Shown in pieces: positions 1-38,512 of a DNA stretch of 39,453 nucleotides. The notes below the pieces were generated by a model. It saw only the letters and a list, made by a program, of their open reading frames with translations. It had not been told where the DNA came from and made no database searches. This DNA comes from a virus. Location of the stretch: IMG/VR virus record IMGVR_UViG_3300009128_000051, positions 1 to 39,453 of that record; one strand, written 5' to 3'. Positions within the stretch are counted from its first letter, which is position 1. Each line of letters opens with the position of its first letter. A program made the position numbers and the translations under genes.

Positions 1-1749
1 CTTGAGAACCAGGCTGCTGAGCTACTTCGTGAGTTCAACTCAGTCTCGACAGGTGGAGCGGCTAACACCGCCTCCGGCGACCTTCGTGGTTTCACCAACA
101 TAGCGTTCCCAATCGTCCGTCGCGTCTTCGGCGGTCTGGTGGCCAACGAGCTCATTTCGGTTCAGCCGATGAGTCTCCCCTCTGGCCTCCTCTTTTACCT
201 TGACTATACATACGGCAATGCTGTAGGTGGTGATGCCAATGTCGGCACCGGCGCTTCTGCTGGAAATGCAGTGTATACTCGAGGCCAGTCAATCTATAAC
301 AACCCTCCAGGTTCTGGGGTCCAGTCGGGCTCCCTTGCCGCGGGTGGTATGTACGACCTCGTTGGTGCGGGCTTCTCCCGTGTCCAGAGTGGTTCATCAG
401 CTATTGGCGTGACAAACCTCCGTTCAGGCTCATTTGTTAGCAACGGTGATACCCTTACTGAGGGCCTTTCTGTTAGTGCTGTCGGTGAGGTATCAGGTAC
501 CAACGGTCGTTTCCTCGGTTATGATCCGCAGCTTGTAGCTGCACTTGATAACGGCACGATTGCTGAGCTGCAGTTCCTTGCTCTTCCAACAGCGTTACTG
601 CCTGCGTCAGCAGACCTAACGCAGGTCGACCAGATTGCATTGTATGCTACACCTGGTCCTGGTGCCGGACACCCAACTGCTTGGGGTGAGGCCTATCAGG
701 CAGGCGCGGTATTCAACCTTCGTCGACACAATCAGAGGGTTCAGGGAACCCCTGCGGCAGGCGCGCTTAATAGCGTTGTTTCCTCACCAATGAATGGAAA
801 TACCATTCTTATGGTGGTTAAGAAGCCCGCCGGTCCATGGAACGCAGCAACAACGTTGTCTGTCTCGACTGTGATCGGTGATACACTAGACGTTGGTGGT
901 GCTGCTTCGACGCTGGTGATTCCATCGTTCGAGTCGAACTTTGGTACTACACCTAGTCCGAACATCCCCGAGATCGATATTAAGGTCGAGTCCATCGCGG
1001 TTACCGCGCAGACTCGTAAGCTCAGGGCACGTTGGTCCCCAGAACTCGCCCAGGACTTGAACGCTTACCACAGCCTCGACGCTGAGGTTGAGCTGACACA
1101 GATCCTGTCCGAGCAGGTGGCCCTCGAGATCGACCGTGAGATCCTTAATGATCTGCTCTCCCAGGCGAATGGCGCGAACCTATTCTGGTCGCGTGCTCCT
1201 GGTAAGTTCGTCAACAAGACTAACGGTAATGAGATCGCTAAGAGCTCCGCCACCGCTCCTGGTCCGGCATTTACCGGTACCGTCCGTGAGTGGTATGAGA
1301 CCCTGATCGAGACCATTATTGACTGTGCTAATACCATCCACCGCAAGACTCTCCGCGGCTCGGCGAACTTTATCGTCGTCTCCCCGGACGTGGCCACCAT
1401 CCTGGAGGCCTCGGTCTACTACCGTCCAAGCTACAGCGTGGATGGAGACGGTCAGGTCAGCTCCCCGTTCAACCTGGGAGCCGAGAAGGTTGGTACCCTG
1501 AGCAATCGTTTCACAGTCTACAAGGACCCCTACTTCCCCCGCAACAAGATTCTTGTTGGTTACAAGGGTGGTAGCTACCTCGAGACTGGTTACGTGTACG
1601 CTCCTTACGTGCCGCTCATCGTCACTCCGACGATCTTCGCCCCCGAGGACTTCACACCTCGTAAGGGCGTCATGACACGTTATGGTAAGAAGATGGTTCG
1701 TTCCGACTTCTACGGTACCGTTACGTGCCTTGATATGAACATCATCTAG
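1..1749 (+). CDS. Major capsid protein, gp23-like (5' end missing)
   Basis: This is the main shell protein of the phage head. The reading frame is open from base 1, so the N-terminus, which in T4 gp23 is removed by the prohead protease, lies outside the window; 582 residues remain. The segment FPIVRRVFGGLVANELISVQ followed by PMSLPSG (about residues 36-60 of the visible part) matches the conserved N-terminal region of mature gp23-type capsid proteins. The C-terminus carries the usual 'RYGKKMVRSDFYG' type ending of the HK97-fold family. A GTG at 139 could be mistaken for a start, but homology-like sequence continues upstream of it. The gene ends 27 bases before a strong terminator, so capsid transcription probably stops here. 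Family assignment is by recognition of motifs, without a search. Confidence 0.88.
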   Translation, partial: LENQAAELLREFNSVSTGGAANTASGDLRGFTNIAFPIVRRVFGGLVANELISVQPMSLPSGLLFYLDYTYGNAVGGDANVGTGASAGNAVYTRGQSIYNNPPGSGVQSGSLAAGGMYDLVGAGFSRVQSGSSAIGVTNLRSGSFVSNGDTLTEGLSVSAVGEVSGTNGRFLGYDPQLVAALDNGTIAELQFLALPTALLPASADLTQVDQIALYATPGPGAGHPTAWGEAYQAGAVFNLRRHNQRVQGTPAAGALNSVVSSPMNGNTILMVVKKPAGPWNAATTLSVSTVIGDTLDVGGAASTLVIPSFESNFGTTPSPNIPEIDIKVESIAVTAQTRKLRARWSPELAQDLNAYHSLDAEVELTQILSEQVALEIDREILNDLLSQANGANLFWSRAPGKFVNKTNGNEIAKSSATAPGPAFTGTVREWYETLIETIIDCANTIHRKTLRGSANFIVVSPDVATILEASVYYRPSYSVDGDGQVSSPFNLGAEKVGTLSNRFTVYKDPYFPRNKILVGYKGGSYLETGYVYAPYVPLIVTPTIFAPEDFTPRKGVMTRYGKKMVRSDFYGTVTCLDMNII

Positions 1750-1775
1750 CAGTAGACGATATTCAGTGAATTGAG

Positions 1776-1812
1776 ACGGGTCGTCCTTCGGGGCGGCCCG
1801 TTTTCATTTTTT
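1776..1812 (+). terminator. Rho-independent terminator after capsid gene
   Basis: An 11-bp stem pairs ACGGGTCGTCC (1776-1786) with GGGCGGCCCGT (1791-1801), with two G-T wobbles, closed by a TTCG tetraloop and followed by TTTTCATTTTTT. It lies 27 bases after the capsid stop codon and separates the head operon from the FtsZ-like gene. Confidence 0.9.
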
Positions 1813-1836: not shown

Positions 1837-1850
1837 CATATTTATCATGT
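1837..1850 (+). promoter_or_regulatory. Candidate late promoter element (TATTTATC)
   Basis: TATTTATC occupies 1839-1846. The same 14-base string CATATTTATCATGT recurs at 3123-3136, just before the neck gene. The element lies between the capsid terminator and the FtsZ-like gene, which fits a fresh transcription start for that gene. T4 late promoters are TATAAATA, so this would be a related but different signal. Its function is inferred from position and repetition. Confidence 0.4.
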
Positions 1851-1902: not shown

Positions 1903-2036
1903 TGGAAGCATGTACACTTGTTTAGAATATGGGCTCGACCGTAAGAAACACGTATTTTAATTTAGATAAAAAACGTAGCACAGGAAAGAAGGGCAAGAAG
2001 CCCGAAGAAAATAAGGACAATCAGGAGATATTAATA

Positions 2037-3101
2037 ATGTCAGACGACGAAATTTTAGCAGCCGCAGATGATTTTGACTTTGTAGGTCACTACGGAGATC
2101 CAGTTCAGGACCAGGGAGACGAGCTGCTTCCAGATAATGTGGCGGGTAGCGCTATTTCATGCGGATTCATTGGCATCGGCGGTGGTGGTGGAAAGCTTGC
2201 AAAGGCGTTTATTGACGTTGGCTTTAATAAGACTGTCCTGGTCAATACGACAGAGAAGGACCAGCCTAATGGCGTAGACCCTGCGCACTTTCTATTGCTG
2301 CCAGGTGCTGATGGGGTGGGCAAGGATGTGAATCTCGGTCAAAAGGTTCTAACAGAAAATAGTACACTGCTAGAGGACGTACTTAAAAACAGGATAGGCC
2401 AGGTTGACTGGTTGTTTGTCCTCGCCGGTGGAGGTGGAGGTACAGGATCGGCATCAGGATGGCTTCACGGTTCATTTGAGCGATACCTGAAGGCATCCGG
2501 GGGTACTGGTGATGTTGTGTACGTTCTAACAGCTCCATCGGCCCAGGAGCTTCTCAATCCGACTATCAAAAACAATTATGAGATGGCCCTGGAGAAGGTT
2601 GTCAATTACTCACATATTGTCCTAGACAATGAACGACAGCTGCAGCTTTTGCGAGGCAAGGTTGGTGTTCTCAATATGTTCTCATTGGCTAACATTACGT
2701 TTGCCAAGATGCTTGCACAGGTATTTAGGCTAGCCGGCGCTAGTTCTCCTGTGCAGGCATTTGACACAAAGGATCTCGAGCGTTGCCTACGTGAGAAGGG
2801 TCGCATATTTCTCGGTACCACTGTTGTGCCAGAGCCGTCAGTTACCGGCCTAGGCAGTCGTATATATCAGGAGTGTGTAAAAAATTCGCCGTGTCCGTCT
2901 CCTGGTGGTCAGATATCAGTTGGATCTCTGCTTTTATGTGTCACTGAGGAAATGGCGTCAGATCCCACTATTTCCAATCACATGGAGTCAGCTGTCGCAT
3001 ATGTTGGAGCTAGATCCGGCGCGCTATTCTCAGGAATATATGTTCGCAACGGCCTTCCAGGTCTCGTAGCGATGGTCTTGCTGGGAGGTTTAAAGAGTTA
3101 A
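2037..3101 (+). CDS. FtsZ/tubulin-superfamily GTP-binding protein
   Basis: Predicted 354-residue filament-forming GTPase relative. The N-terminal Rossmann strand and loop read GFIGIGGGGGKLAKAF (residues 43-58). The tubulin/FtsZ signature loop appears as AGGGGGTGSAS (130-140). DNERQL near residue 197 resembles the NDRL region of FtsZ. At the T7-loop position the sequence is LANITFAKML (N219, T221, K224), where FtsZ has NxDxxD; both catalytic aspartates appear replaced, suggesting a weak or inactive GTPase or a regulatory paralogue. ATG 2037 is chosen because AGGAGA stands 7 bases upstream. An in-frame ATG at 1929 would add 36 lysine-rich residues but has no ribosome site. Jumbo phages use the tubulin PhuZ to centre a phage nucleus; a filament role here is only inferred. 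The gene stands alone between a terminator and a new promoter motif. Confidence 0.75.
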   Translation: MSDDEILAAADDFDFVGHYGDPVQDQGDELLPDNVAGSAISCGFIGIGGGGGKLAKAFIDVGFNKTVLVNTTEKDQPNGVDPAHFLLLPGADGVGKDVNLGQKVLTENSTLLEDVLKNRIGQVDWLFVLAGGGGGTGSASGWLHGSFERYLKASGGTGDVVYVLTAPSAQELLNPTIKNNYEMALEKVVNYSHIVLDNERQLQLLRGKVGVLNMFSLANITFAKMLAQVFRLAGASSPVQAFDTKDLERCLREKGRIFLGTTVVPEPSVTGLGSRIYQECVKNSPCPSPGGQISVGSLLLCVTEEMASDPTISNHMESAVAYVGARSGALFSGIYVRNGLPGLVAMVLLGGLKS

Positions 3102-3122: not shown

Positions 3123-3136
3123 CATATTTATCATGT
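3123..3136 (+). promoter_or_regulatory. Candidate late promoter element (TATTTATC)
   Basis: TATTTATC at 3125-3132 within CATATTTATCATGT, identical to the copy at 1837-1850. It lies 21 bases before the neck-gene ATG at 3154, leaving room for a short leader containing AGGAG (3142-3146). Confidence 0.45.
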
Positions 3137-3153: not shown

Positions 3154-4347
3154 ATGGCAACATTTGCAAACACTTTGAATCCGACTCCCTTTGGTTTTTT
3201 TGACCAGGAGTCGGATTTTCAGTCAGAGGCAGACAATATTGTCACATTTGTAAAGCGTAAGCTTGGTGATGATATTTTAAGCGTTGAACTGACTAAGAAA
3301 CAGATTTGGGCCTGTTTCGAGGAGTCATTCCTGGAGTACGGCTCCCTTATTAATCAGTACCAGGCAAAGTCCCAAATGCTAGATTTTTTGGGCACACCTT
3401 CCGGCTCCTTGCTTTCAGGCTCTGAACAGAAATATCCACGAAAGACACTGGAATTTTTAAGGCGCCAGGCAGAACCATACTCAACCGAAGGTGGTGTGGG
3501 TGGAGCACAGAACCCAACGTCAGGCTCCATTAAGCTCATTGATGGACAACAGGATTATGATATTTATGATGACCTAATGACAGAGCCGGGAGGTGCTACA
3601 ACTGTAGTAAGCACCCAGACTGCTGGTCGAAGGACAAAGATGAAAGTGCAGGAAGTTTATCACTTCTCTCCGTCAGCTGCTTATAGATTTTTTGATTCAA
3701 CGTCAGCTATCAACTATCTAAATAATGAATTCTCTTTTGAGTCATTTACCCCGGAAAGTATTTTCTATGTATTACCTGTTTTTGAGGATATACTTCGGGC
3801 TGGGCAGATGGATGTATCGCAGCGAGTAAGAAGGTCAAATTATAGCTACAGGCTACAAGGAACGAAGATAAGAATCTTTCCAGCTCCAGTAACACCTCCA
3901 AATGGACCTAGCGTTCGTTACTTATGGATTAGGGTTGTTGTCAATGCGCAGGATCCATTAAATCCTCCATATACTGATGATACTATTTACGGTGTCTCTA
4001 ATTTGTCGAATATTCCATATGGAAATTTACAATATGATAGGGTCAATAGCGTCGGTCGCCAGTGGGCTCGGCAGTTTACGTTGGCACTTTGTAAGGAACT
4101 GCTTGGTTTAATCAGGTCAAAGTTTGGGAATATTCCAATCCCAGGCCGAGAGCTTACACTTAATGGTACTGATCTCGTAACGCAGGGCAGAGAGGATCAG
4201 GAGAAATTACGAACTCAGATAAATGAGATGCTTGAATCCATGACATATGATAAATTACTTGAGATTCAGGCGGTGACGTCTGAGAATATAATGAAGCAGC
4301 TCAAGACAATTCCGGTGCCTAATGGCGAAGCCATAACCATGGGATAG
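3154..4347 (+). CDS. Neck protein, gp13-like
   Basis: A 397-residue structural protein, probably part of the neck that closes the filled head and joins it to the tail. The N-terminal part (about residues 10-75) contains NPTPFGFFDQESDF, TFVKRKLGDDILSVELTKKQ and IWACFEESFLEYGSLINQYQ, a block I associate with the gp13-type neck proteins of marine T4-like phages. It is longer than T4 gp13 (309 residues). AGGAG lies 7 bases before the ATG. The next gene starts 4 bases after its stop, and the series continues with gp14- and gp15-like genes in the T4 order. The assignment rests on remembered family motifs and on order. Confidence 0.6.
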   Translation: MATFANTLNPTPFGFFDQESDFQSEADNIVTFVKRKLGDDILSVELTKKQIWACFEESFLEYGSLINQYQAKSQMLDFLGTPSGSLLSGSEQKYPRKTLEFLRRQAEPYSTEGGVGGAQNPTSGSIKLIDGQQDYDIYDDLMTEPGGATTVVSTQTAGRRTKMKVQEVYHFSPSAAYRFFDSTSAINYLNNEFSFESFTPESIFYVLPVFEDILRAGQMDVSQRVRRSNYSYRLQGTKIRIFPAPVTPPNGPSVRYLWIRVVVNAQDPLNPPYTDDTIYGVSNLSNIPYGNLQYDRVNSVGRQWARQFTLALCKELLGLIRSKFGNIPIPGRELTLNGTDLVTQGREDQEKLRTQINEMLESMTYDKLLEIQAVTSENIMKQLKTIPVPNGEAITMG

Positions 4348-6257: not shown

Positions 6258-6325
6258 ATAGGTTTTTAGACATCTAAACTCATAATTATAAAAGATTGCT
6301 TAAGCATGTTAATTGGGAGACCGAA

Positions 6326-9300
6326 ATGGCCGAGAGAACATTTAGATCGCCAGGATTTTTTGACACTGAGATTGATTTGTCTCAGAGACAGAAGGCACCA
6401 CTTGGCACACCTGCTGGAATAGCAGGCACTGCCGAGAAGGGTCCCGCATTCGTTCCGATTTCTATCGGGTCGCTTGCGGACTTTAAGACGAGGTTTGGAA
6501 ACTTAGATTCCAAGAAGTTTGGTCCCTATGCTGTTACTGAGTTTTTAAAGAATCGAAATGCGGTAACGTATGTCAGGACGCTAGGCGCTGGTGTAGTTAC
6601 TTCATCCGCTGATATTGAGAATGAAAGAACCAAGGGAAATCTTCCTGGTGCAGGATTTTTTCTGAAGCCTGTAAGCGTTCCTGACGACTCAGGTCATACA
6701 GGCGCAATGCAGTTCCTTGTTGCGAACCATTATATTTCTGCATCTGAGACAATTGGCATGCCAATGTTTTCGGATAATGATAGTTTTAATAACGCCTCGG
6801 AAGGTGCCGGCGCTCAAATAGTCAGAGGAATGATAGCACCTTCCGCCGGATCTAGAATTATGATTATAGATCATGACCAAACCTACAGTCCTGCTGTTGT
6901 TGCTAACGACACGGCAACTGTGGGTGCTGCGGCAGCTGGTCAAATGGCAACATGTTTTAAGATAATTGTCTCATCCTCCGCCGGTAGCGTTTTTGCAAAC
7001 GATGATGGCGCCCCCGGAATTAAAATTTACACGGCATCATTGGATCCTGACAATGATAACTTCATTTCCAAGGTTCTGAATACAGACCCTGAGCAGTTTA
7101 ACACATTTAAGCACTATCTATACGCATCATTTAATGTTGATGCTCAGCTAGCAGCTGTTACCACAGCAGCCGACGCAGTCGGTATTCTATCAGGATCATC
7201 AAGGACGAATTCACACGCCGTACCATTTCTTAATGCTTATGGTCGATTTAATGCAGCATATACAACACCAATTACTCCATCTGTTATATCACAGCCTTTT
7301 GGAACCAAAGAGTACGATCTGTTTAGTGTAGAGGCTATTTCTGACGGTGCTTATGCCAACACAGATATTAAGATATCCATTAGTAACATTCGCGCGTCTA
7401 CTAATCCAAACAGCGAATTTGGATCATTCACGCTACAGGTTCGAAAATTCAGTGACACAGATTTAAATCCTGAAGCCTTAGAGGAATATCCTAACCTATC
7501 ATTAGACCCACAGGCTTCAAATTACATCGCCAAGGTTATTGGCACAAAGAAGGCATCATTTAACTTCCTTGCTGAGCAGACAGAAGAGCGTCGCCTGGTT
7601 ATAACAGGTAAATTCCCTAATGTGTCAACGATGATTAGAGTAGTAGAGAGCGATGACTTGAAGAATGGACGAATTCCTAAGGACGCACTTCCATTCGGGT
7701 TTAGGGGATATGCCCTTTCACGAACATCTCCAAGTAATAACGATTTTATGCCGGACCCCAAAGGTGGACTAGGGGACGCTCTTATTACGGGGTCTATAGG
7801 GGCCACATCCCCACTTTCATCTTCAATTCTTCCACCAGTGCCATTGAGGTTTAAGGCAACACGCGGTGAGCTTAATAAGGCACCCACATATGTCGGGGAA
7901 AAGGGTGATCAGGAGATTACAGACGCTAGGTTTTACTGGGGCGTTAAATTTGAGAGGAATACCTCCCCCTATGATGCCAACCCGATACAGACAGCTAATG
8001 CATGCATTCCGGCCTTCGCCAAGTTCCTTGGTATGGCCAAGCAGGGCGTTTTGGTGTCAGGAAGTAATCGGGATTCGTTTAATAATAACAAGTTTACATT
8101 GGCCCGAGTTGCACTAAGCCCGAGTGCATCGCAGTGGAGTCAGGTAAATACGTCCACTGTCTCTGATATGATGAAGGAGGTTGCATACCTACGAAATGGG
8201 GTTGTCAATCCTGCTGCATCTGGGAGCGACTCGGCATTGTACACGCTTTCCGATGCCGTATCACGTGATACCAGGCTGGGGATGGGAAGCCTCTTGGCTT
8301 CTGGCGCTCTAACATTTAATAGGTTCTCTAATTTTAATAAGTTCTCAATGTTTATGGCAGGTGGTTGGGATGGCCTTAATATTCTGGATAAGAATGCCGG
8401 TCGAATGAATGATAAGGCTTCTTCCACATCAGCTGGCGGAGGTGCTTCGTCGGCTTTCACATCACCAGGCCTGTCAGCTAACATGGCCGGCGTTGGAAAG
8501 AATAACTCTGCTATCTCCGCTTATAAGACAGCAGCTGATATCTTGACGGATCCGTTCGCCTCTAATATTAATATCCTGTCGATACCTGGCATTAGGGAGC
8601 CACTAGTTACAGATCACGCTGCAAAGAAGACAAAGGACTACTCCATGGCTGTCTTCCTAATGGACATAGAGAATTACGATGATGATGGCAATAGGCTGTT
8701 CAACGATCGAATTGTTCGCCCCAGCGTTCGAAAGACAAAGGAGCAGTTCGAGAGTCGGGCAATCGACAATAACTACTCTGCTGTGTACTTTCCAGATGTC
8801 ATTATTGATACACCGTCTGGTCAGCACGTGAGGACACCTCCCAGTGTTGCTGCTCTTGGAGCTCTAGGGTATAATGATAAGGTTGGCTATCCATGGTTCG
8901 CCCCCGCTGGTTTTAACAGGGGAGCTCTGGATTTCGTCAAGAATGTCGATGTCCGACTGACAAAGGGTGACAGGGACGACCTGTACGATGCGAGGATTAA
9001 TCCGATTGCCACATTCCCACGACAGGGATTCGTAATATTCGGACAGAAGACCCTTCAATATGCCCAGTCATCACTGGACAGAGTGAATGTCAGGAGGCTA
9101 ATGCTGGAGATAAAGAGGATAATCGTCAATATTGCCGAGGGTATCCTCTTTGAGCCAAATACCTCAGCGACCAGAGCATCATTTATTGCTCAGTCAGTCC
9201 CACAGCTTGCATTAATTCAGGCACAGGCTGGCATCGAGAGCTTTAAGGTCGTGATGGATAATACTAATAATACCGCAGCTGATGTCGAGCAGAATAAGCT

Positions 9301-9391
9301 GAACGGTAGAATTGTTGTGGTACCGACTAGGGCGATTGAATTTATCGCAATTGACTTTATCATCACAAATTCTGGCGTAAGCTTTGAATAA
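6326..9391 (+). CDS. Tail sheath protein, gp18-like, copy A
   Basis: Contractile sheath subunit of 1021 residues; T4 gp18 has 659. The start begins MAERTFRSPGFFDTEIDLSQ, with GGGAGA 5 bases upstream of ATG 6326; an alternative in-frame start at 6296 has no good ribosome site. N-terminal features are GTPAGIAGTAEKGPAFVP and KKFGPYAVTEFLKNRNAVTY. The C-terminal sheath core includes INPIATFPRQGFVIFGQKTL, then DRVNVRRLMLEIKRI, and FEPNTSATRASF, followed by PTRAIEFIAIDFII, all typical of gp18-type sheaths. The middle (about residues 150-700) is enlarged and probably forms outward-facing insertion domains. It is followed after 37 bases by a clear paralogue, so the virion may carry two sheath species. 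Confidence 0.88.
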   Translation: MAERTFRSPGFFDTEIDLSQRQKAPLGTPAGIAGTAEKGPAFVPISIGSLADFKTRFGNLDSKKFGPYAVTEFLKNRNAVTYVRTLGAGVVTSSADIENERTKGNLPGAGFFLKPVSVPDDSGHTGAMQFLVANHYISASETIGMPMFSDNDSFNNASEGAGAQIVRGMIAPSAGSRIMIIDHDQTYSPAVVANDTATVGAAAAGQMATCFKIIVSSSAGSVFANDDGAPGIKIYTASLDPDNDNFISKVLNTDPEQFNTFKHYLYASFNVDAQLAAVTTAADAVGILSGSSRTNSHAVPFLNAYGRFNAAYTTPITPSVISQPFGTKEYDLFSVEAISDGAYANTDIKISISNIRASTNPNSEFGSFTLQVRKFSDTDLNPEALEEYPNLSLDPQASNYIAKVIGTKKASFNFLAEQTEERRLVITGKFPNVSTMIRVVESDDLKNGRIPKDALPFGFRGYALSRTSPSNNDFMPDPKGGLGDALITGSIGATSPLSSSILPPVPLRFKATRGELNKAPTYVGEKGDQEITDARFYWGVKFERNTSPYDANPIQTANACIPAFAKFLGMAKQGVLVSGSNRDSFNNNKFTLARVALSPSASQWSQVNTSTVSDMMKEVAYLRNGVVNPAASGSDSALYTLSDAVSRDTRLGMGSLLASGALTFNRFSNFNKFSMFMAGGWDGLNILDKNAGRMNDKASSTSAGGGASSAFTSPGLSANMAGVGKNNSAISAYKTAADILTDPFASNINILSIPGIREPLVTDHAAKKTKDYSMAVFLMDIENYDDDGNRLFNDRIVRPSVRKTKEQFESRAIDNNYSAVYFPDVIIDTPSGQHVRTPPSVAALGALGYNDKVGYPWFAPAGFNRGALDFVKNVDVRLTKGDRDDLYDARINPIATFPRQGFVIFGQKTLQYAQSSLDRVNVRRLMLEIKRIIVNIAEGILFEPNTSATRASFIAQSVPQLALIQAQAGIESFKVVMDNTNNTAADVEQNKLNGRIVVVPTRAIEFIAIDFIITNSGVSFE

Positions 9392-9428: not shown

Positions 9429-12400
9429 ATGGCCGAAAGAACATTAACAAGCCCAGGCGTCACAACGCGTGAAATTGACCTTAGCGGACCTACGAATGCT
9501 ACAGCATTCGGTGTCCCCGCCGGAGTGATAGGAACCGCTGACAGGGGGCTCGCATTTGTGCCTGTTACATTTGGCACCCGCCAGGATTTTGTCGCCAAGT
9601 TTGGTGACACTGATGGTAAGAAATTTGGGCCGCTAGCGGTGACCGAGTGGATGAGAAATGCCACTGCTGGTTCCTACCTTCGTATCCTGGGTGCCGGCGA
9701 TGGCAAGAAGCGATCCACGTCAACAGGAAAGGTTACAAATGCAGGATTTACTGTCGGTGCCGAGCAGGTACAGGCTAATGGACTGATTGGTCCTAATCCA
9801 TATGCTGTTGCTGGAAACCAACCTGGAAATGTGCATTTTCTTGCAGCAGCAATGGCACAGGCAGCTAATTCCACAATTTTTACCGATGCAGGCCTTAATG
9901 CGCAGACAGTCACTCTTCGTGGTGTGCTAATGGCACCTGATCAGGTTGTATTAATGCTATCAGGTACGACTACTGATAATAATACACCTACGGATGATTC
10001 AACAGCGGCTTCTTCTACAGGGCCTAGAGGAGCAATGACTGGCTCCCTTAATATAGCGTCAGGATCATCATCATTTGTCATGCTTTTAAACGGGCATAAG
10101 TCGACCGCTGCGTATCCAAACGTGATAACGGCATCACTCAACCCAACATCACCAGAATATTTTTCCAAGGTGTTCAATAAGGATGCAACCAAGATAGAGG
10201 AGGCAGGTCATCTGCTTTATGCTCACTATGATCTGGAAGAGGCTTTTTGCGTTCCGACAGGATCGAATCTCCTAGCCGCTGCAGCATACCATGATTCTAA
10301 TGGAAAGAGGCTAGAGGATATTGTTTTCCTAGCAACCGGTTCGGCGGATATGACAACCGGTGCCGCGACCCGGCCTGAGTACAAGGGGTTTGAGAATCGA
10401 TTTACTACATCCAAGTCACCATGGCTAACCAGTCAGGCAAATGTCAACCTATTTAGACTTCATGCTCTTGACGACGGCCAGCTACGTTCCACAGGTAATT
10501 CTAAGGCCCCAACAATGCAGGGTGCTAATGATAGATATAAGTTGTCAATAAGGAACATTAAAAAGTCGACATCAGCCACTGATTTATTCGGTACATTCGA
10601 CCTGGTGGTAAGGGACTTTTACGATACAGATGATGACCCAGTTGAACTAGAGACATTCTCAGGTCTTTCATTGGATCCTTCATCTCCCAATTATATCTCT
10701 GCAAGAGTTGGAGACATGACGACATACTTCGATTTTGACAAGGTCGATGATGAGCAGAGAATTGTGGTCGAGGGAAGCTATCCGAATGTCTCCAATTATA
10801 TTCGAGTTGAGCGCTCTATCGAGCTAGCCGCAGGCGATACGTCAGACGATTCCCTTCCAGTAGGATTCAGGGGTCCTGATCACCTGCTTCTATCGGGAAC
10901 AAACTGTCTTGCTCCTGCCTCACACGAAGCGGCCGTATACACAGGCCTCCCAGCCGACCTTGCAGGCTCTCCTATGGGAAGAATGAATGAACCACCAATA
11001 CCATTCAGGCAGCATCTAGTTGCAAACCAAAGTGGTACCATTAATTCCCGATTTAATGCCAACTTGTACTGGGGTATCCAGTTCGAGCGGGAGACGACGC
11101 TTGCTGGTCCAAATATAAGCCAGCTGCCAAATCCGACACTGGCCTCTATGACATCTTTCTTCCCCAACTTTAGGCTGGATGCGCTCAATGTTTCGACAGG
11201 CTCAAATGCCGGTGAGGCGCGCCTAAATGGTGGTATTTTGGATTCAGACCTATTCAACAATAATAAGTTTAGTCTATTAAACCTTAAGATCCTGACAGGC
11301 TCCGACGGCAAAGTGGATATTTCAACGGCACTGTCCTGGCAGTATGTCAGGAATGGTACAATCTCACCAAGCGCTGCTGGAAAGAGTCGAGCACTGAGTT
11401 TCACCGACGACTTCGTTCCTGCAATGAGTAGGTTCCTTAAGTTCAGCTTCTTTGTCGAGGGCGGATTTAATGGCCTGAACATGTTTAACAAGGACAAGGT
11501 GGAGATGAATAACACTGCTGTCCGCCGGGAGATGGATGACGTGAACGAATCGCAGAAGTCATCCTCGACAGTCGCTGCATATCTTAAGGCCTTGGATATT
11601 ATGGGTCGTACTAGTGACGTCGACCTACAGCTCTTGGCAATACCAGGAATTAGGCACTCGGCAGTCACAGACGAGGCCATTAACACTGTTGAAAATAGGT
11701 TTGATGCACTTTACATCATGGATATCGAAGAGCGTGATACGTTGAATATGGTGGTGACATCATCAGCACAGGTGCCACATGTCCAGAATACGGCGACTGC
11801 TTTTGGTAATCGCGCACTCGACACATCGTTTGCCGCGGCATACTTCCCCGACGTTATTGTCCTGGACTCAACAGTCAATACGCTGGTTAATGTTCCACCG
11901 TCAGTCGCTGTATTGGGTGCCTTCTCACTTAATGACAAGCTGGCACATCCCTGGTTCGCCCCAGCGGGCTTTGCACGCGGTGCCCTTGCTTCCACTGATG
12001 ATGTGGCTCTTCGAATCAACCAGGACAATCAGGACCGCCTCTACGAGACTGATATCAACCCAATCAGGACTTTCCCAGGTCGAAATGGTGTCGTGGTCTT
12101 CGGTCAGAAGACACTCCAGCAGGCACAGTCTGCACTAGATAGAATTAACGTCAGGCGTCTTCTCATAGACGTTCGACGTCAGGTCAGAAATATTGCCAAT
12201 AGGTTCCTCTTCGAACCAAACCGCGAGGCGACCCTCGCTGCATTCTCGGCTGCAGTCCAGCCGGTCCTTCAGAGGATTCAGCAGCAACAGGGCGTTGACA
12301 GGTACAAGGTGATAATTGACACAACCACTACTACCCAGGCCGACGTTGAGAATAACACGATCCGAGGTAAGATATTCCTACAGCCGACACGCTCTGTGGA

Positions 12401-12449
12401 ATTCGTCTCACTCGACTTTGTTGTCACAAATGCTGGCGCCGAGGAATAA
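9429..12449 (+). CDS. Tail sheath protein, gp18-like, copy B
   Basis: Second contractile sheath subunit, 1006 residues. The N-terminus MAERTLTSPGVTTREIDLSG and the segment KKFGPLAVTEWMRNATAGSY parallel copy A. The C-terminus closely matches copy A (INPIRTFPG, VVFGQKTLQQAQSALDRINV, RRLLIDVRRQVRNIANRFLF, PTRSVEFVSLDFVVTNAG), whereas the middle regions differ more. This pattern fits a tandem duplication in which the contractile core was kept and the exposed domains diverged. AGGAG is 8 bases before the ATG. The tail tube gene follows 56 bases later, as in T4 (18-19). Confidence 0.88.
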   Translation: MAERTLTSPGVTTREIDLSGPTNATAFGVPAGVIGTADRGLAFVPVTFGTRQDFVAKFGDTDGKKFGPLAVTEWMRNATAGSYLRILGAGDGKKRSTSTGKVTNAGFTVGAEQVQANGLIGPNPYAVAGNQPGNVHFLAAAMAQAANSTIFTDAGLNAQTVTLRGVLMAPDQVVLMLSGTTTDNNTPTDDSTAASSTGPRGAMTGSLNIASGSSSFVMLLNGHKSTAAYPNVITASLNPTSPEYFSKVFNKDATKIEEAGHLLYAHYDLEEAFCVPTGSNLLAAAAYHDSNGKRLEDIVFLATGSADMTTGAATRPEYKGFENRFTTSKSPWLTSQANVNLFRLHALDDGQLRSTGNSKAPTMQGANDRYKLSIRNIKKSTSATDLFGTFDLVVRDFYDTDDDPVELETFSGLSLDPSSPNYISARVGDMTTYFDFDKVDDEQRIVVEGSYPNVSNYIRVERSIELAAGDTSDDSLPVGFRGPDHLLLSGTNCLAPASHEAAVYTGLPADLAGSPMGRMNEPPIPFRQHLVANQSGTINSRFNANLYWGIQFERETTLAGPNISQLPNPTLASMTSFFPNFRLDALNVSTGSNAGEARLNGGILDSDLFNNNKFSLLNLKILTGSDGKVDISTALSWQYVRNGTISPSAAGKSRALSFTDDFVPAMSRFLKFSFFVEGGFNGLNMFNKDKVEMNNTAVRREMDDVNESQKSSSTVAAYLKALDIMGRTSDVDLQLLAIPGIRHSAVTDEAINTVENRFDALYIMDIEERDTLNMVVTSSAQVPHVQNTATAFGNRALDTSFAAAYFPDVIVLDSTVNTLVNVPPSVAVLGAFSLNDKLAHPWFAPAGFARGALASTDDVALRINQDNQDRLYETDINPIRTFPGRNGVVVFGQKTLQQAQSALDRINVRRLLIDVRRQVRNIANRFLFEPNREATLAAFSAAVQPVLQRIQQQQGVDRYKVIIDTTTTTQADVENNTIRGKIFLQPTRSVEFVSLDFVVTNAGAEE

Positions 12450-30837: not shown

Positions 30838-33354
30838 GTGAAGAAGAGCGCAGCATTAAAGAAGTCTCTAAAGTATTTTAATGACGATAACTTAGCGGCT
30901 AGTGTTTTTGTAACGAAGTATGCTCTAACTGATCCTACTGGCAAGTTGCTAGAGGCAACGCCGGAGGACATGCACCATCGCCTAGCAGCTGAGTTTGCCA
31001 GGATTGAGAGCAAGTACGATAATCCTATGACAGAGGAGGAGATCTTTTCCCTTCTTGACAGGTTCCGTTATGTTGTTCCGCAGGGATCCCCGATGGCAGG
31101 AATTGGTAATCCACACCAGGTGCAGTCTATCTCCAACTGCTTTGTTATTGATGCCCCTGAGGACTCGTACGGAGGCATACTGAAGAGTGACCAGGAACTT
31201 GTTCAAATTGCTAAGCGTCGAGGTGGAATTGGGTTCGATATTTCCACTATTCGCCCTAAGGGATTAAATACGGCGAATGCTGCTAGGACAACAGACGGAA
31301 TAGAAGTCTTCATGGATCGCTTCTCTAACTCCTGCCGAGAGGTGGCACAAGGAGGCCGCCGCGGTGCCCTGATGTTGACAATATCAGTTCATCACCCTCA
31401 AATTCGTGACTTCATAAAGATTAAACGGGATCTAACTAGAGTGACTGGCGCCAATATATCAATTCGCCTGACAGACGAGTTTATGAATGCCGTAAAGGAT
31501 GACACAGATGTACAGCTTAGGTTCCCTGTGGAAAAGGACGCAGAGCACACAGTCGTCATGCAGGCTTCGGCTGGTCAGATATGGAATGAGATGATTGAGT
31601 CAGCTCACGCCTCAGCTGAGCCAGGCCTGCTGTTCTGGGATAATGCCAAGCGAACGACACCGTCGGACATATATGAGAATGAGGGCTTTGGTTCTGTTTC
31701 GACAAATCCGTGCGGTGAAATTATCCTGTCTCCATACGATTCATGCCGACTGATGCTAGTTAACCTTACATCATTTGTCCAGGATCCCTGGACACGTGTG
31801 TCATATTTTGACTATAATGCCTTTGCCAAGGTCGTGCAAAAGACACAACGTCTTATGGATGATATGATTGACCTGGAGGTTGAGCAGATTGATGCCATAC
31901 TGGCCAAGGTAGCCAGCGATCCAGAGTCAGGATCGACTAAGGCGATTGAGATACAGCTGTGGACACAGATTCGTGAGCAGGCGCTTAGGGGTCGTCGTAC
32001 AGGATTGGGAATTACTGGGCTTGGTGACACAATGGCGATGCTTGGTATTCGCTATGGCAGTAATGAGAGTATTACCGAGACCGAAAAGATATACAAGTGG
32101 CTGTCTTCGCATGCATACATATCTTCCATGAACTTAGCCAAGGAGCGTGGAGCATTTGAGGTTCATGATCCTGACCGTGAAACTGGCCACCCGTTCCTTG
32201 AGAGAATTTTTAGCGCTATCGATGAGATGCCGGTCGAGTCCATGGACGTCCCACTTGCCTACAAAGCGAGGCAGATGAACCAGCGGTGGGGACGCAGGAA
32301 TATTGCAATTACCACGACGGCCCCCGCGGGTAGTGTCTCTGTCCTGACACAGACAACATCTGGCATTGAGCCGGCTTTTATGCTTCACTACACACGCCGG
32401 AGAAAAGTAGCCGACGGCGAACAGCACGATTTTATTGATGACGTTGGAGATCGCTGGAAAGAGTATGATGTCTATCATCATAAATTTAGTGAGTGGATTG
32501 CTAATACATCGGCTAGCGGTACACCTGGTGAGCTGATCGAGGACAGCCCATACGTCGGGGCAACGGCAAATAATATTGACTGGGTCCAGAAGGTAAAGAT
32601 GCAGGCAGCAGCACAGCGGTGGGTCTGTCATGCAATTTCTAATACGACAAACGTCCCTGAGGACACATCAGTTGAGACGATTAAGGACATCTACACGGCC
32701 GGCTGGGAGTCTGGTTGTAAAGGTGTCACTGTCTATCGTGACAACTGCAGGTCTGGTGTCCTTGTCAACAAGGAGACGGTGACAGAGAAGTGCTCGGCTG
32801 GCTTTATGTCAATGTCGGCTCCAAAACGACCCGAGTATCTAGCGTGCCACATTCATCATGCCACAATCCAGGGTGAGAAGTGGACGATCCTAGTCGGTCT
32901 CATGGATGAAAAGCCATATGAGATTATTGGAGGCCTGTCAGAATACGTCGAGATTCCACGAAAGTATCGCGAGGGGCGCATAAAAAAGAACCCTCGCAAG
33001 TCGATGAACTCAATTTATGACCTGGCTTTTGGTGAGAACGGCGATGAGATTATTCTTAAGAATATCGTTGCGCTATTCGATAATCCGAATTACTCCTCAT
33101 TTACTCGCATGATATCACTCGGTCTTCGTCATGGAGCACCTATTCAGTATGTCGTTGAACAGCTACAAAAGGACAAGGATGCAGACCTGTTTTCGTTCTC
33201 AAAGGTTGTCGCAAGAGTGCTAAAGAATTATATTATTGACGGTACTAGGTCAACGGCTGAGAAGTCATGTTCATCATGTGGGGCATCTGATTCCTTCGTA
33301 TACCAGGAAGGCTGTATAACATGCTCTAGTTGTGGTTGGTCAAAGTGCTCATAG
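30838..33354 (+). CDS. nrdJ: Adenosylcobalamin-dependent (class II) ribonucleotide reductase
   Basis: An 838-residue reductase that makes deoxynucleotides using vitamin B12 coenzyme. SISNCFVID holds the first redox cysteine (C101). NPCGEI (C292, E294) is the thiyl-radical site. DSCRLMLVNL supplies the paired cysteine (C303). TTAPAGSVSVLTQTTSGIEP is the phosphate-binding region. The C-terminus has the domain usual in class II enzymes (CHIHHATIQGEKWTILVGLM, then EIIGGLSEYVEIP) and a zinc-ribbon-like end with CSSCG and CSSCGWSKC. No NrdB-type partner is next to it, as expected for class II. The start is GTG 30838 with GGGAGGA 7 bases upstream; the nearer ATG 30833 stops at once. Confidence 0.9.
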   Translation: MKKSAALKKSLKYFNDDNLAASVFVTKYALTDPTGKLLEATPEDMHHRLAAEFARIESKYDNPMTEEEIFSLLDRFRYVVPQGSPMAGIGNPHQVQSISNCFVIDAPEDSYGGILKSDQELVQIAKRRGGIGFDISTIRPKGLNTANAARTTDGIEVFMDRFSNSCREVAQGGRRGALMLTISVHHPQIRDFIKIKRDLTRVTGANISIRLTDEFMNAVKDDTDVQLRFPVEKDAEHTVVMQASAGQIWNEMIESAHASAEPGLLFWDNAKRTTPSDIYENEGFGSVSTNPCGEIILSPYDSCRLMLVNLTSFVQDPWTRVSYFDYNAFAKVVQKTQRLMDDMIDLEVEQIDAILAKVASDPESGSTKAIEIQLWTQIREQALRGRRTGLGITGLGDTMAMLGIRYGSNESITETEKIYKWLSSHAYISSMNLAKERGAFEVHDPDRETGHPFLERIFSAIDEMPVESMDVPLAYKARQMNQRWGRRNIAITTTAPAGSVSVLTQTTSGIEPAFMLHYTRRRKVADGEQHDFIDDVGDRWKEYDVYHHKFSEWIANTSASGTPGELIEDSPYVGATANNIDWVQKVKMQAAAQRWVCHAISNTTNVPEDTSVETIKDIYTAGWESGCKGVTVYRDNCRSGVLVNKETVTEKCSAGFMSMSAPKRPEYLACHIHHATIQGEKWTILVGLMDEKPYEIIGGLSEYVEIPRKYREGRIKKNPRKSMNSIYDLAFGENGDEIILKNIVALFDNPNYSSFTRMISLGLRHGAPIQYVVEQLQKDKDADLFSFSKVVARVLKNYIIDGTRSTAEKSCSSCGASDSFVYQEGCITCSSCGWSKCS

Positions 33355-33366
33355 GGAAAAGTATTA

Positions 33367-33972
33367 ATGAATATAATTAGCAAGATTGATCCGCGTATTA
33401 AGGAAGTAGAACTTAGGAGTAATCCTGTCTACATCAGGGTTAATAAGTTCGATGAGTCAGCTGCCAAGAAGTTTGCTGATGACATGTCAAAGGCACAAAA
33501 TACAGGTCAGACAGTAATTCCTGTTGTTATTGATTCATATGGTGGCCAGGTTTATAGCTTAATGGCAATGATAAGTGCTATTAATGCCTCACACCTTCCA
33601 GTGGCAACAATTGTATCAGGTAAGGCGATGTCATGTGGCGCGATTCTATTTTCCTGCGGTGAAGAGGGAATGCGATATGTGGACAAGGACGCCACTATTA
33701 TGATTCATGATGTTTCTTCACTTGAGCGCGGTAAGGTTGAGGAGATTAAGGCTTCCGCCGAGGAGACCGAGCGACTGAATCAGAAGGTCTACGAGATCAT
33801 GGCGACTAATTGTGGAAAGCACAAGGATTACTTTTTGGATATAGTCCATGACAGGGGACACGCAGACTGGTTTTTAGATGCCAATGAGGTTGTCAAGCAC
33901 AACTTGGCGAATCACATAGGAACGCCACGGCTTGAGGTCCAGGTCGGAGTCTCATTTAATTTTTACGCTTAG
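33367..33972 (+). CDS. ClpP-like serine protease
   Basis: A 201-residue peptidase of the ClpP/crotonase fold. The catalytic triad can be placed: S89 in GKAMSCGAILFSCG, H114 in TIMIHDVSS, and D167 in HADWFLDANEVVKHNLANHI. VVIDSYGGQVYSLMAMISAI forms the oxyanion-loop region (ClpP: 'INSPGG'). It ends the reductase operon and precedes a new promoter. Its target is unknown: it could process phage proteins, or join or replace host ClpP with host unfoldases. The prohead protease of T4-like phages is of a different family and would be expected near the capsid gene. Confidence 0.8.
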   Translation: MNIISKIDPRIKEVELRSNPVYIRVNKFDESAAKKFADDMSKAQNTGQTVIPVVIDSYGGQVYSLMAMISAINASHLPVATIVSGKAMSCGAILFSCGEEGMRYVDKDATIMIHDVSSLERGKVEEIKASAEETERLNQKVYEIMATNCGKHKDYFLDIVHDRGHADWFLDANEVVKHNLANHIGTPRLEVQVGVSFNFYA

Positions 33973-37501: not shown

Positions 37502-38512
37502 ATGTACACCAAGCTTGAGTATGTTTGGATTGACGGAGGATCTCCGTGGGGCTTACGTTCCAAGATTAAGGTAATGTCGGGGGATTTTGATCCTGAGACT
37601 GATACCGCTCCGCCATGGAATTTCGATGGTTCTTCCACAAACCAGGCTGCGGGAGATGATTCCGACTGCCTACTTCAACCTGTCAGATACTACCTTCATC
37701 CCTATGTGGAGGACACATGGATTGTCCTGTGTGAGGTCCTAACACCCGCCGGCGACCGCCATCACACTAATACACGGGGTAGTTTTATTGATGCGCTCTC
37801 CGCTCGTGCTGAGACAGAGCCATGGCTGGGGTTTGAGCAGGAGTACTCTATTATTCACAATAATAGGCCGCTGGGTTTCCCAGACAATGGATATCCAAGT
37901 CCACAGGGAATATACTACTGCTCTGTCGGTGGGGATCGATCTTTTGGTAGGCAGGTCTCTAACGCTCATCTTGAGGCGTGCCTTGATGCTGGTGTCAATA
38001 TTTGTGGCACCAACGCTGAGGTTGCACCAGGGCAATGGGAGTATCAGGTCGGTGGTCCGGAGATCCCGGCCGATGTTACCTGTGATGACCTATGGATGTC
38101 ACGATATCTATTGCTCTATACAGCTGAGCATGCTGGGCTGACTGTGACATTTGAGCCCAAGTGCGTTCCTGGCGACTGGAACGGTGCTGGATGTCACACT
38201 AATTTTTCGACTGCTGAGATGCGTGCTGAAGGTGGCATTAAGACAATTGAACGAGCATGTGAGGCCCTCTCCAAGAGGGCAGCTGACCACTTAGCTGGGT
38301 ACGGTGCTGATATCGAACTCCGGTTAACAGGTGATCACGAGACATGTTCATATAGGGAGTTTAAGTGGGGCGTCGCCGACAGGACCGCGTCCATTAGAAT
38401 TCCCAGGCATGTCGCGACAGACGGTTGCGGTTATTTGGAGGACCGCCGCCCTAATGCTAATTGCGATCCTTATGTGGTCGCGCAATTAATGATTGAAACA
38501 ACGGCCAATTAG
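37502..38512 (+). CDS. glnII: Glutamine synthetase, eukaryotic-type (GSII)
   Basis: A 336-residue, apparently full-length type II glutamine synthetase, which joins glutamate and ammonia using ATP. Hallmarks are WNFDGSSTNQAAGDDSDCLL (about residues 38-57), GFEQEYSI, CGTNAEVAPGQWEYQVGGPE (about 168-187), PGDWNGAGCHTNFST (about 223-237), LTGDHETCSYREFKWGVADR and YLEDRRPNANCDPYVV. The glutamate, ammonium and nucleotide site residues seem intact. GSII is usual in eukaryotes and in some Actinobacteria and Alphaproteobacteria. It lacks the adenylylation loop of type I, so host control may be escaped. It would supply amide nitrogen during infection. It is the last gene of the operon. Confidence 0.92.
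   Translation: MYTKLEYVWIDGGSPWGLRSKIKVMSGDFDPETDTAPPWNFDGSSTNQAAGDDSDCLLQPVRYYLHPYVEDTWIVLCEVLTPAGDRHHTNTRGSFIDALSARAETEPWLGFEQEYSIIHNNRPLGFPDNGYPSPQGIYYCSVGGDRSFGRQVSNAHLEACLDAGVNICGTNAEVAPGQWEYQVGGPEIPADVTCDDLWMSRYLLLYTAEHAGLTVTFEPKCVPGDWNGAGCHTNFSTAEMRAEGGIKTIERACEALSKRAADHLAGYGADIELRLTGDHETCSYREFKWGVADRTASIRIPRHVATDGCGYLEDRRPNANCDPYVVAQLMIETTAN

Follow-up and report, generated by a model that had tools for sequence, protein, structure and literature searches.

To our knowledge, phage cytoskeletons have been studied almost solely as part of the phiKZ-like phage nucleus. PhuZ (phiKZ gp39 family) positions phage DNA or heads (PMC13282480) and needs its acidic C-terminal knuckle for polymerisation (PMC3678025), and TubZ serves in phage and plasmid partition (PMC7824862). 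A first-pass annotation of the DNA analysed here equated known phage tubulins with PhuZ, which is incomplete, as gp138 of Bacillus phage G (AEO93400), whose annotation reads putative FtsZ-like cell division protein, is the nearest annotated phage relative that we found. Here, we have characterised an FtsZ/tubulin-like gene in a virus record of 39,453 bases (the window, that is, the whole stretch of DNA analysed), which is a fragment of a T4-type phage. This large T4-type phage encodes its own FtsZ relative, whose family is widespread and undescribed: no description of it in T4-type phages was found in the literature covered, preprints and most subscription papers lying outside the search.

Genomic Setting and Transcription Signals

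The T4-type markers of the window are gp23 (Pfam Gp23, E = 2e-71), a T4 baseplate protein, and tail sheath and tube proteins. The closest cultured gp23 proteins are those of Microcystis and Flavobacterium phages (36-50%), and, as to the host, the sole match in genome collections is a 15-kb contig in a Flavobacteriaceae MAG whose binning may be wrong. The tubulin-like gene directly follows the major capsid gene, as had been proposed, with gp23 on one side and the head-tail adaptor gene on the other (Table 1). The reading frame at 139-1749 does not mark the true gp23 start; gp23 of relatives begins about 95 codons earlier.

A strong terminator separates the tubulin-like gene from gp23, and a promoter-like element, CATATTTATCATGT, precedes the gene, its first copy beginning 92 bases before the ATG at 1929. 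The terminator and the repeated element fit a separate transcription unit, so the earlier suggestion that the gene has its own unit gains support from these signals. In addition, a 12-mer, ATATTTATCATG, occurs in just two exact copies in the window, and its 11-base core was found, among the loci then searched, in L047 and L001 alone (L001 belongs to the window); a promoter role for this 12-mer can be proposed only tentatively.

Table 1. Features of the tubulin-like gene and its surroundings in the window (all on the + strand; residues are numbered in the long reading).
Feature	Position	Details	Evidence
Major capsid gene gp23	1..1749	5' end truncated at window edge	Pfam Gp23
Intrinsic terminator after gp23	1773..1804	14-pair hairpin	Same hairpin in L003, L050
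Promoter-like element, first copy	1837..1850	Upstream of tubulin-like gene	Exact 14-nt repeat
Tubulin/FtsZ-family gene, long reading	1929..3101	390 aa	Open frame, relatives' upstream starts, AF2, Foldseek
Disordered N-terminal leader and acidic tail	1929..2144	Residues 1-72	AF2 pLDDT <50, residues 1-62
Shine-Dalgarno-like AGGAG	2023..2027	For internal start	Sequence
Short reading from internal ATG	2037..3101	354 aa	AGGAG ahead of start
DFDFV motif	2070..2084	Residues 48-52, family signature	Motif count among the loci's ORFs
T1 loop GGGGGK	2178..2195	Residues 84-89; K89 at E. coli FtsZ N24 position	Alignment
T2 region NTTEKDQ	2244..2264	Residues 106-112, family-invariant, in place of FtsZ NTDAQ	Alignment
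T4 glycine loop GGGGGTGS	2427..2450	Residues 167-174	Family alignment
T6 region DNERQ	2625..2639	Residues 233-237; N234 aligns with FtsZ N165	Alignment
LANITFAKML	2685..2714	Residues 253-262, part of central helix H7	AF2 helix, FtsZ alignment
T7 motif FDTKDL	2760..2777	Residues 278-283	FtsZ alignment; 79/79 distinct relatives
Promoter-like element, second copy	3123..3136	Before gp13-like gene	Exact repeat; similar in L002, L003, L050
Head-tail adaptor gene (gp13-like)	3154..4347		phrog_211, E = 1.2e-9

Two Nested Start Codons

The start originally assigned at 2037 is an ATG with a good ribosome-binding site, but the frame is already open from the ATG at 1929. In about 30 of the 80 distinct relatives, too, an in-frame upstream start gives a protein that begins M[AGP]S[ST], and an internal ATG follows downstream; the remaining relatives begin at the second site only. 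Nested starts of this kind were recorded in the window (1929/2037), in L003, L009, L012, and L013, and at about 25 other loci. The internal starts are preceded by a Shine-Dalgarno-like match in nearly all relatives that have them, and in many cases this match exceeds the one before the first start. When leaders were compared in 12 pairs, conservation was highest over the first six to ten residues, and most change fell at third codon positions. Judging from these patterns, long and short isoforms are likely to be made from the two start codons.

Predicted Fold, Nucleotide Pocket, and T7 Loop

Most of residues 71-390 were modelled by AlphaFold (AF2) with pLDDT >90, and the model has the two-domain tubulin/FtsZ fold. 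Among solved structures, Foldseek ranked FtsZ best (E = 2e-19) and CetZ second (4e-19), with TubZ also matched (range from about 1e-19 to 1e-16), so that structure prediction recovers the tubulin fold. Pfam Tubulin was matched by all 34 aligned family members, phmmer with the window protein reached FtsZ structures at E = 5e-6, improving to 5e-10 with the family profile, and profile searches placed FtsZ closest among cellular families. This is a genuine gene that, according to the model, encodes a full tubulin/FtsZ fold, which bears out the initial recognition of an FtsZ/tubulin-like reading frame at 2037-3101.

The glycine loop reported earlier (AGGGGGTGSAS) is indeed present; it is of the GGGTG(S/T) type, and G169-S174 are invariant. 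FtsZ residues N43, T44, N165, and N186 are retained in the family. Three others are changed without exception in the 34 members (N24 to K, D45 to T, and Q47 to K), and D187 is in most cases K (position 256). The FtsZ-specific T2 motif NTDxQ and the guanine-side residues N24 and D187 are thus absent, their places being taken by NTTEK, K89, and mostly K at 256. Because these guanine-side and T2 residues are replaced, neither GTP use nor the mechanism of hydrolysis is assured, and we infer that the pocket changes may affect nucleotide choice.

The first-pass annotation had read LANITFAKML as a T7 loop without the NxDxxD aspartates. This segment, however, is part of helix H7: it lies inside a 20-residue helix predicted by AF2 (residues 250-269) and in the profile alignment pairs with AANDVLKGAV of E. 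coli FtsZ, likewise helix H7. The T7 loop itself comprises residues 270-282, after H7, and ends in QAFDTKD. Its stretch SSPVQAFDTKDLERCL is aligned opposite GLMNVDFADVRTVM of E. coli FtsZ, which places D279 and D282 opposite D209 and D212, so that the T7 positions are acidic after all; both aspartates are invariant in the family, and FDxxDL is found in every one of the 79 distinct relatives that include the T7 region. The FtsZ T7 asparagine N207 is replaced by A or T in the family. Alignment, structure, and family conservation agree in ruling out missing T7 aspartates. Since the aspartates are present, the proposals that the protein forms stable filaments or caps and poisons FtsZ, both of which rested on their absence, are not supported, and the loops lend no support to a dead enzyme or a capping poison. 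The sequence suggests an active enzyme that forms filaments, neither dead nor poisonous.

At the C-terminus, the protein stops at the last core strand and has no tail: the FtsZ C-terminal linker and the FtsA/ZipA-binding peptide are absent, and FtsZ-like anchoring is not expected because that peptide is lacking. The acidic tail is N-terminal instead, and it is acidic in nearly all relatives. The DFDFV-type motif occurs 74 times among all ORFs of the loci, 72 of them in the tubulin-like family.

Comparison with Known Tubulin-Like Proteins

The family shares with FtsZ the fold, the T1, T4, T6, and T7 loops, both T7 aspartates, and the C-terminal domain, but identity is only about 20%, the C-terminal peptide is missing, N24, D45, Q47, and D187 are replaced, and the score against the NCBIfam ftsZ equivalog (23.6 bits) lies far below the cut-off of 295. 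CetZ, the second-best fold match, is cellular and archaeal and shows about 18-22% identity.

Phage G gp138 is related to the family in sequence beyond what chance would give: in an hmmsearch of a 4-protein set with the family profile, it scored highest of the phage proteins (55 bits, compared with 30 bits for E. coli FtsZ). A tblastn search of the window protein against 50,697 phage records (INPHARED) gave no match, and by tblastn only L109 reached phage G (E = 2e-5). The gp138 protein has the T7 sequence NFDKNDL at the same place and the T6 pattern IIDNEK..Q. It differs in its low identity (about 23%), the lack of a long acidic N-tail, a longer C-terminus, an N at the K89 position of the family, different T1 and T2 sequences, and its Bacillus host. 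Among predicted viral structures, the best match was A0A6J5RW92 (FtsZ Cell division GTPase, uncultured Caudovirales phage, E = 1e-21), and A0A8S5UFG9 (Myoviridae sp. ctcyQ27) was also matched (E = 8e-17); in structural alignment the two show just 17-18% identity.

PhuZ is likewise a phage tubulin of large phages, and its fold match is weak (TM 0.47-0.51, BFVD). Sequence similarity to PhuZ was not significant (phrog_4733, E = 0.047 with the window protein; none with hmmsearch --max), and chimallin (phrog_4795) was found in none of 13 large, possibly incomplete records, with phiKZ as positive control at E = 2e-232. The PhuZ tail is acidic and C-terminal, whereas the acidic tail of the new family is N-terminal. 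Membership in PhuZ was rejected on the lack of a sequence match and of chimallin, and the earlier view that the protein is distinct from PhuZ by sequence and sits in a T4-type genome is upheld. Judged by predicted fold, the protein is nearer to FtsZ, CetZ, and TubZ than to PhuZ.

Distribution, Selection, and Genomic Contexts

Close relatives of the window protein number 47, all in IMG/VR, and a profile scan raised the number of IMG/VR copies to at least 134. From these, 80 loci were retained as distinct relatives, and 78 members were taken into the tree. Each of the 15 large records tested has exactly one copy of the gene. A dN/dS of about 0.05, taken from three pairs with unsaturated dS, indicates strong purifying selection. 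One family copy found by whole-record search (L218) carries one in-frame TGA, which might reflect a pseudogene, a sequencing error, or recoding.

The neighbour table and the tree of 78 members reveal at least six genomic contexts. The gene does occur beside gp23 in other phages, the gp23/gp13 context being found in 27 of the 80 distinct relatives and spread over several branches of the tree, but the remainder lie elsewhere; to account for the gp23 context, the tree requires a minimum of six changes. A GroEL/PhoH context with a small sigma-region-4 protein accounts for 20 of the 80, and in two large records the gene lies 77-88 kb from gp23. When 12 IMG/VR records were searched whole, the gene was elsewhere in the genome in two. 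Its distribution is patchy: the gene is missing from a 273-kb record whose gp23 is related, and from the surroundings of gp23 in 46 of 47 newly fetched gp23 relatives with downstream room, a proportion that is not a prevalence, since loci that had already been collected were probably left out of the list. The gene is accessory. In gp23 relatives, the gap between gp23 and gp13 ranges from about 100 bases to more than 5 kb, with variable inserts at the junction, and this junction looks like a cargo site because related phages without the gene carry variable inserts there.

Several neighbours in these contexts deserve mention in their own right. GroEL (Cpn60) was present in 11 of 13 large records (L009, L015, L022, L024, L041, L057, L059, L067, L081, L109, and L099). 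A stationary-phase kinase module made up of PrkA, SpoVR, and a YeaH-like gene lies beside GroEL and the tubulin gene in L026, L036, L044, and L023, and the PrkA and SpoVR identities in GroEL-context phages were confirmed by Pfam. The small sigma-70 region 4 protein of the GroEL/PhoH context is encoded next to the tubulin gene, on the other strand (L019:6413-6736, minus strand, and equivalents).

Proposed Function and Alternative Explanations

On balance, we lean towards the view that the protein is a polymerising GTPase with a positioning role during infection of the cell, comparable to that of PhuZ, although the protein belongs to a different branch and comes without chimallin; a cytoskeletal role, as the first-pass annotation had suggested, is the most likely one. 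This view builds on the fold, the conserved loops, the purifying selection, and the presence of one copy per large contig. The tubulin-superfamily GTPase would polymerise head to tail with nucleotide bound in one subunit, and D279 and D282 of the next subunit would complete the hydrolysis site and permit nucleotide turnover. With less certainty, the filaments might position phage DNA or heads in the manner of PhuZ or TubZ, and the acidic DFDFV N-tail might take the part played by the PhuZ C-terminal tail in contacting a neighbouring subunit or cargo; two protein lengths may arise from the two start codons. Because genomic neighbours vary, they do not name the cargo.

A more elaborate proposal, in which T4-type phages lacking a chimallin nucleus carry a separate phage tubulin family with a rebuilt pocket, an N-terminal acidic tail, nucleus-independent transport or positioning, and two nested-start isoforms, is put forward tentatively and may well prove wrong in part or whole. 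A widespread tubulin family in chimallin-negative T4-type phages would make it testable whether large phages generally need filament positioning, and the pocket changes together with a tail at the opposite chain end represent a natural experiment on the indispensable parts of the tubulin machine.

It is unlikely, though conceivable, that the protein instead co-assembles with or caps host FtsZ, stopping division so that the host stays large; halting division is a role that phages otherwise assign to small peptides (T7 Gp0.4 and lambda Kil). A capper needs just one interface, yet here strong purifying selection maintains the T7 loop as well as the nucleotide loops, and FtsZ identity is low. On the other side, FtsZ is known to be a target of phages (PMC13423816), it is the closest cellular family, and the protein is without the C-terminal peptide that it would need to build its own ring.

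A head-assembly or scaffolding factor working with gp23, as first proposed, seems to us improbable. The gp23/gp13 placement on several branches and the position of the gene after GroEL in another group would suit such a factor, but many contexts are distant from gp23, and in gp23 relatives without the gene the same junction holds other inserts. Any connection with the head is accordingly weak, and the number of contexts and the variable junction weaken the case for a conserved one. We give still less credence to a TubZRC-type partition protein segregating phage DNA in a plasmid-like or pseudolysogenic stage. Neither an iteron or repeat array flanking the window gene (a centromere farther away may exist) nor a conserved small DNA-binding, TubR-like partner across contexts was found, the sigma-region-4 neighbour being limited to one context, and TubZRC membership was rejected on these grounds, although TubZ is among the structural matches.

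Other Features of the Window

Two consecutive large tail-sheath-like genes are present at 6296-9391 and 9429-12449, the first of which matches phrog_23, with the second clustering with the first. By eye, further ORFs resemble glutamine synthetase (37502-38512), a ClpP-like protease (33367-33972), and class II ribonucleotide reductase (30838-33354).
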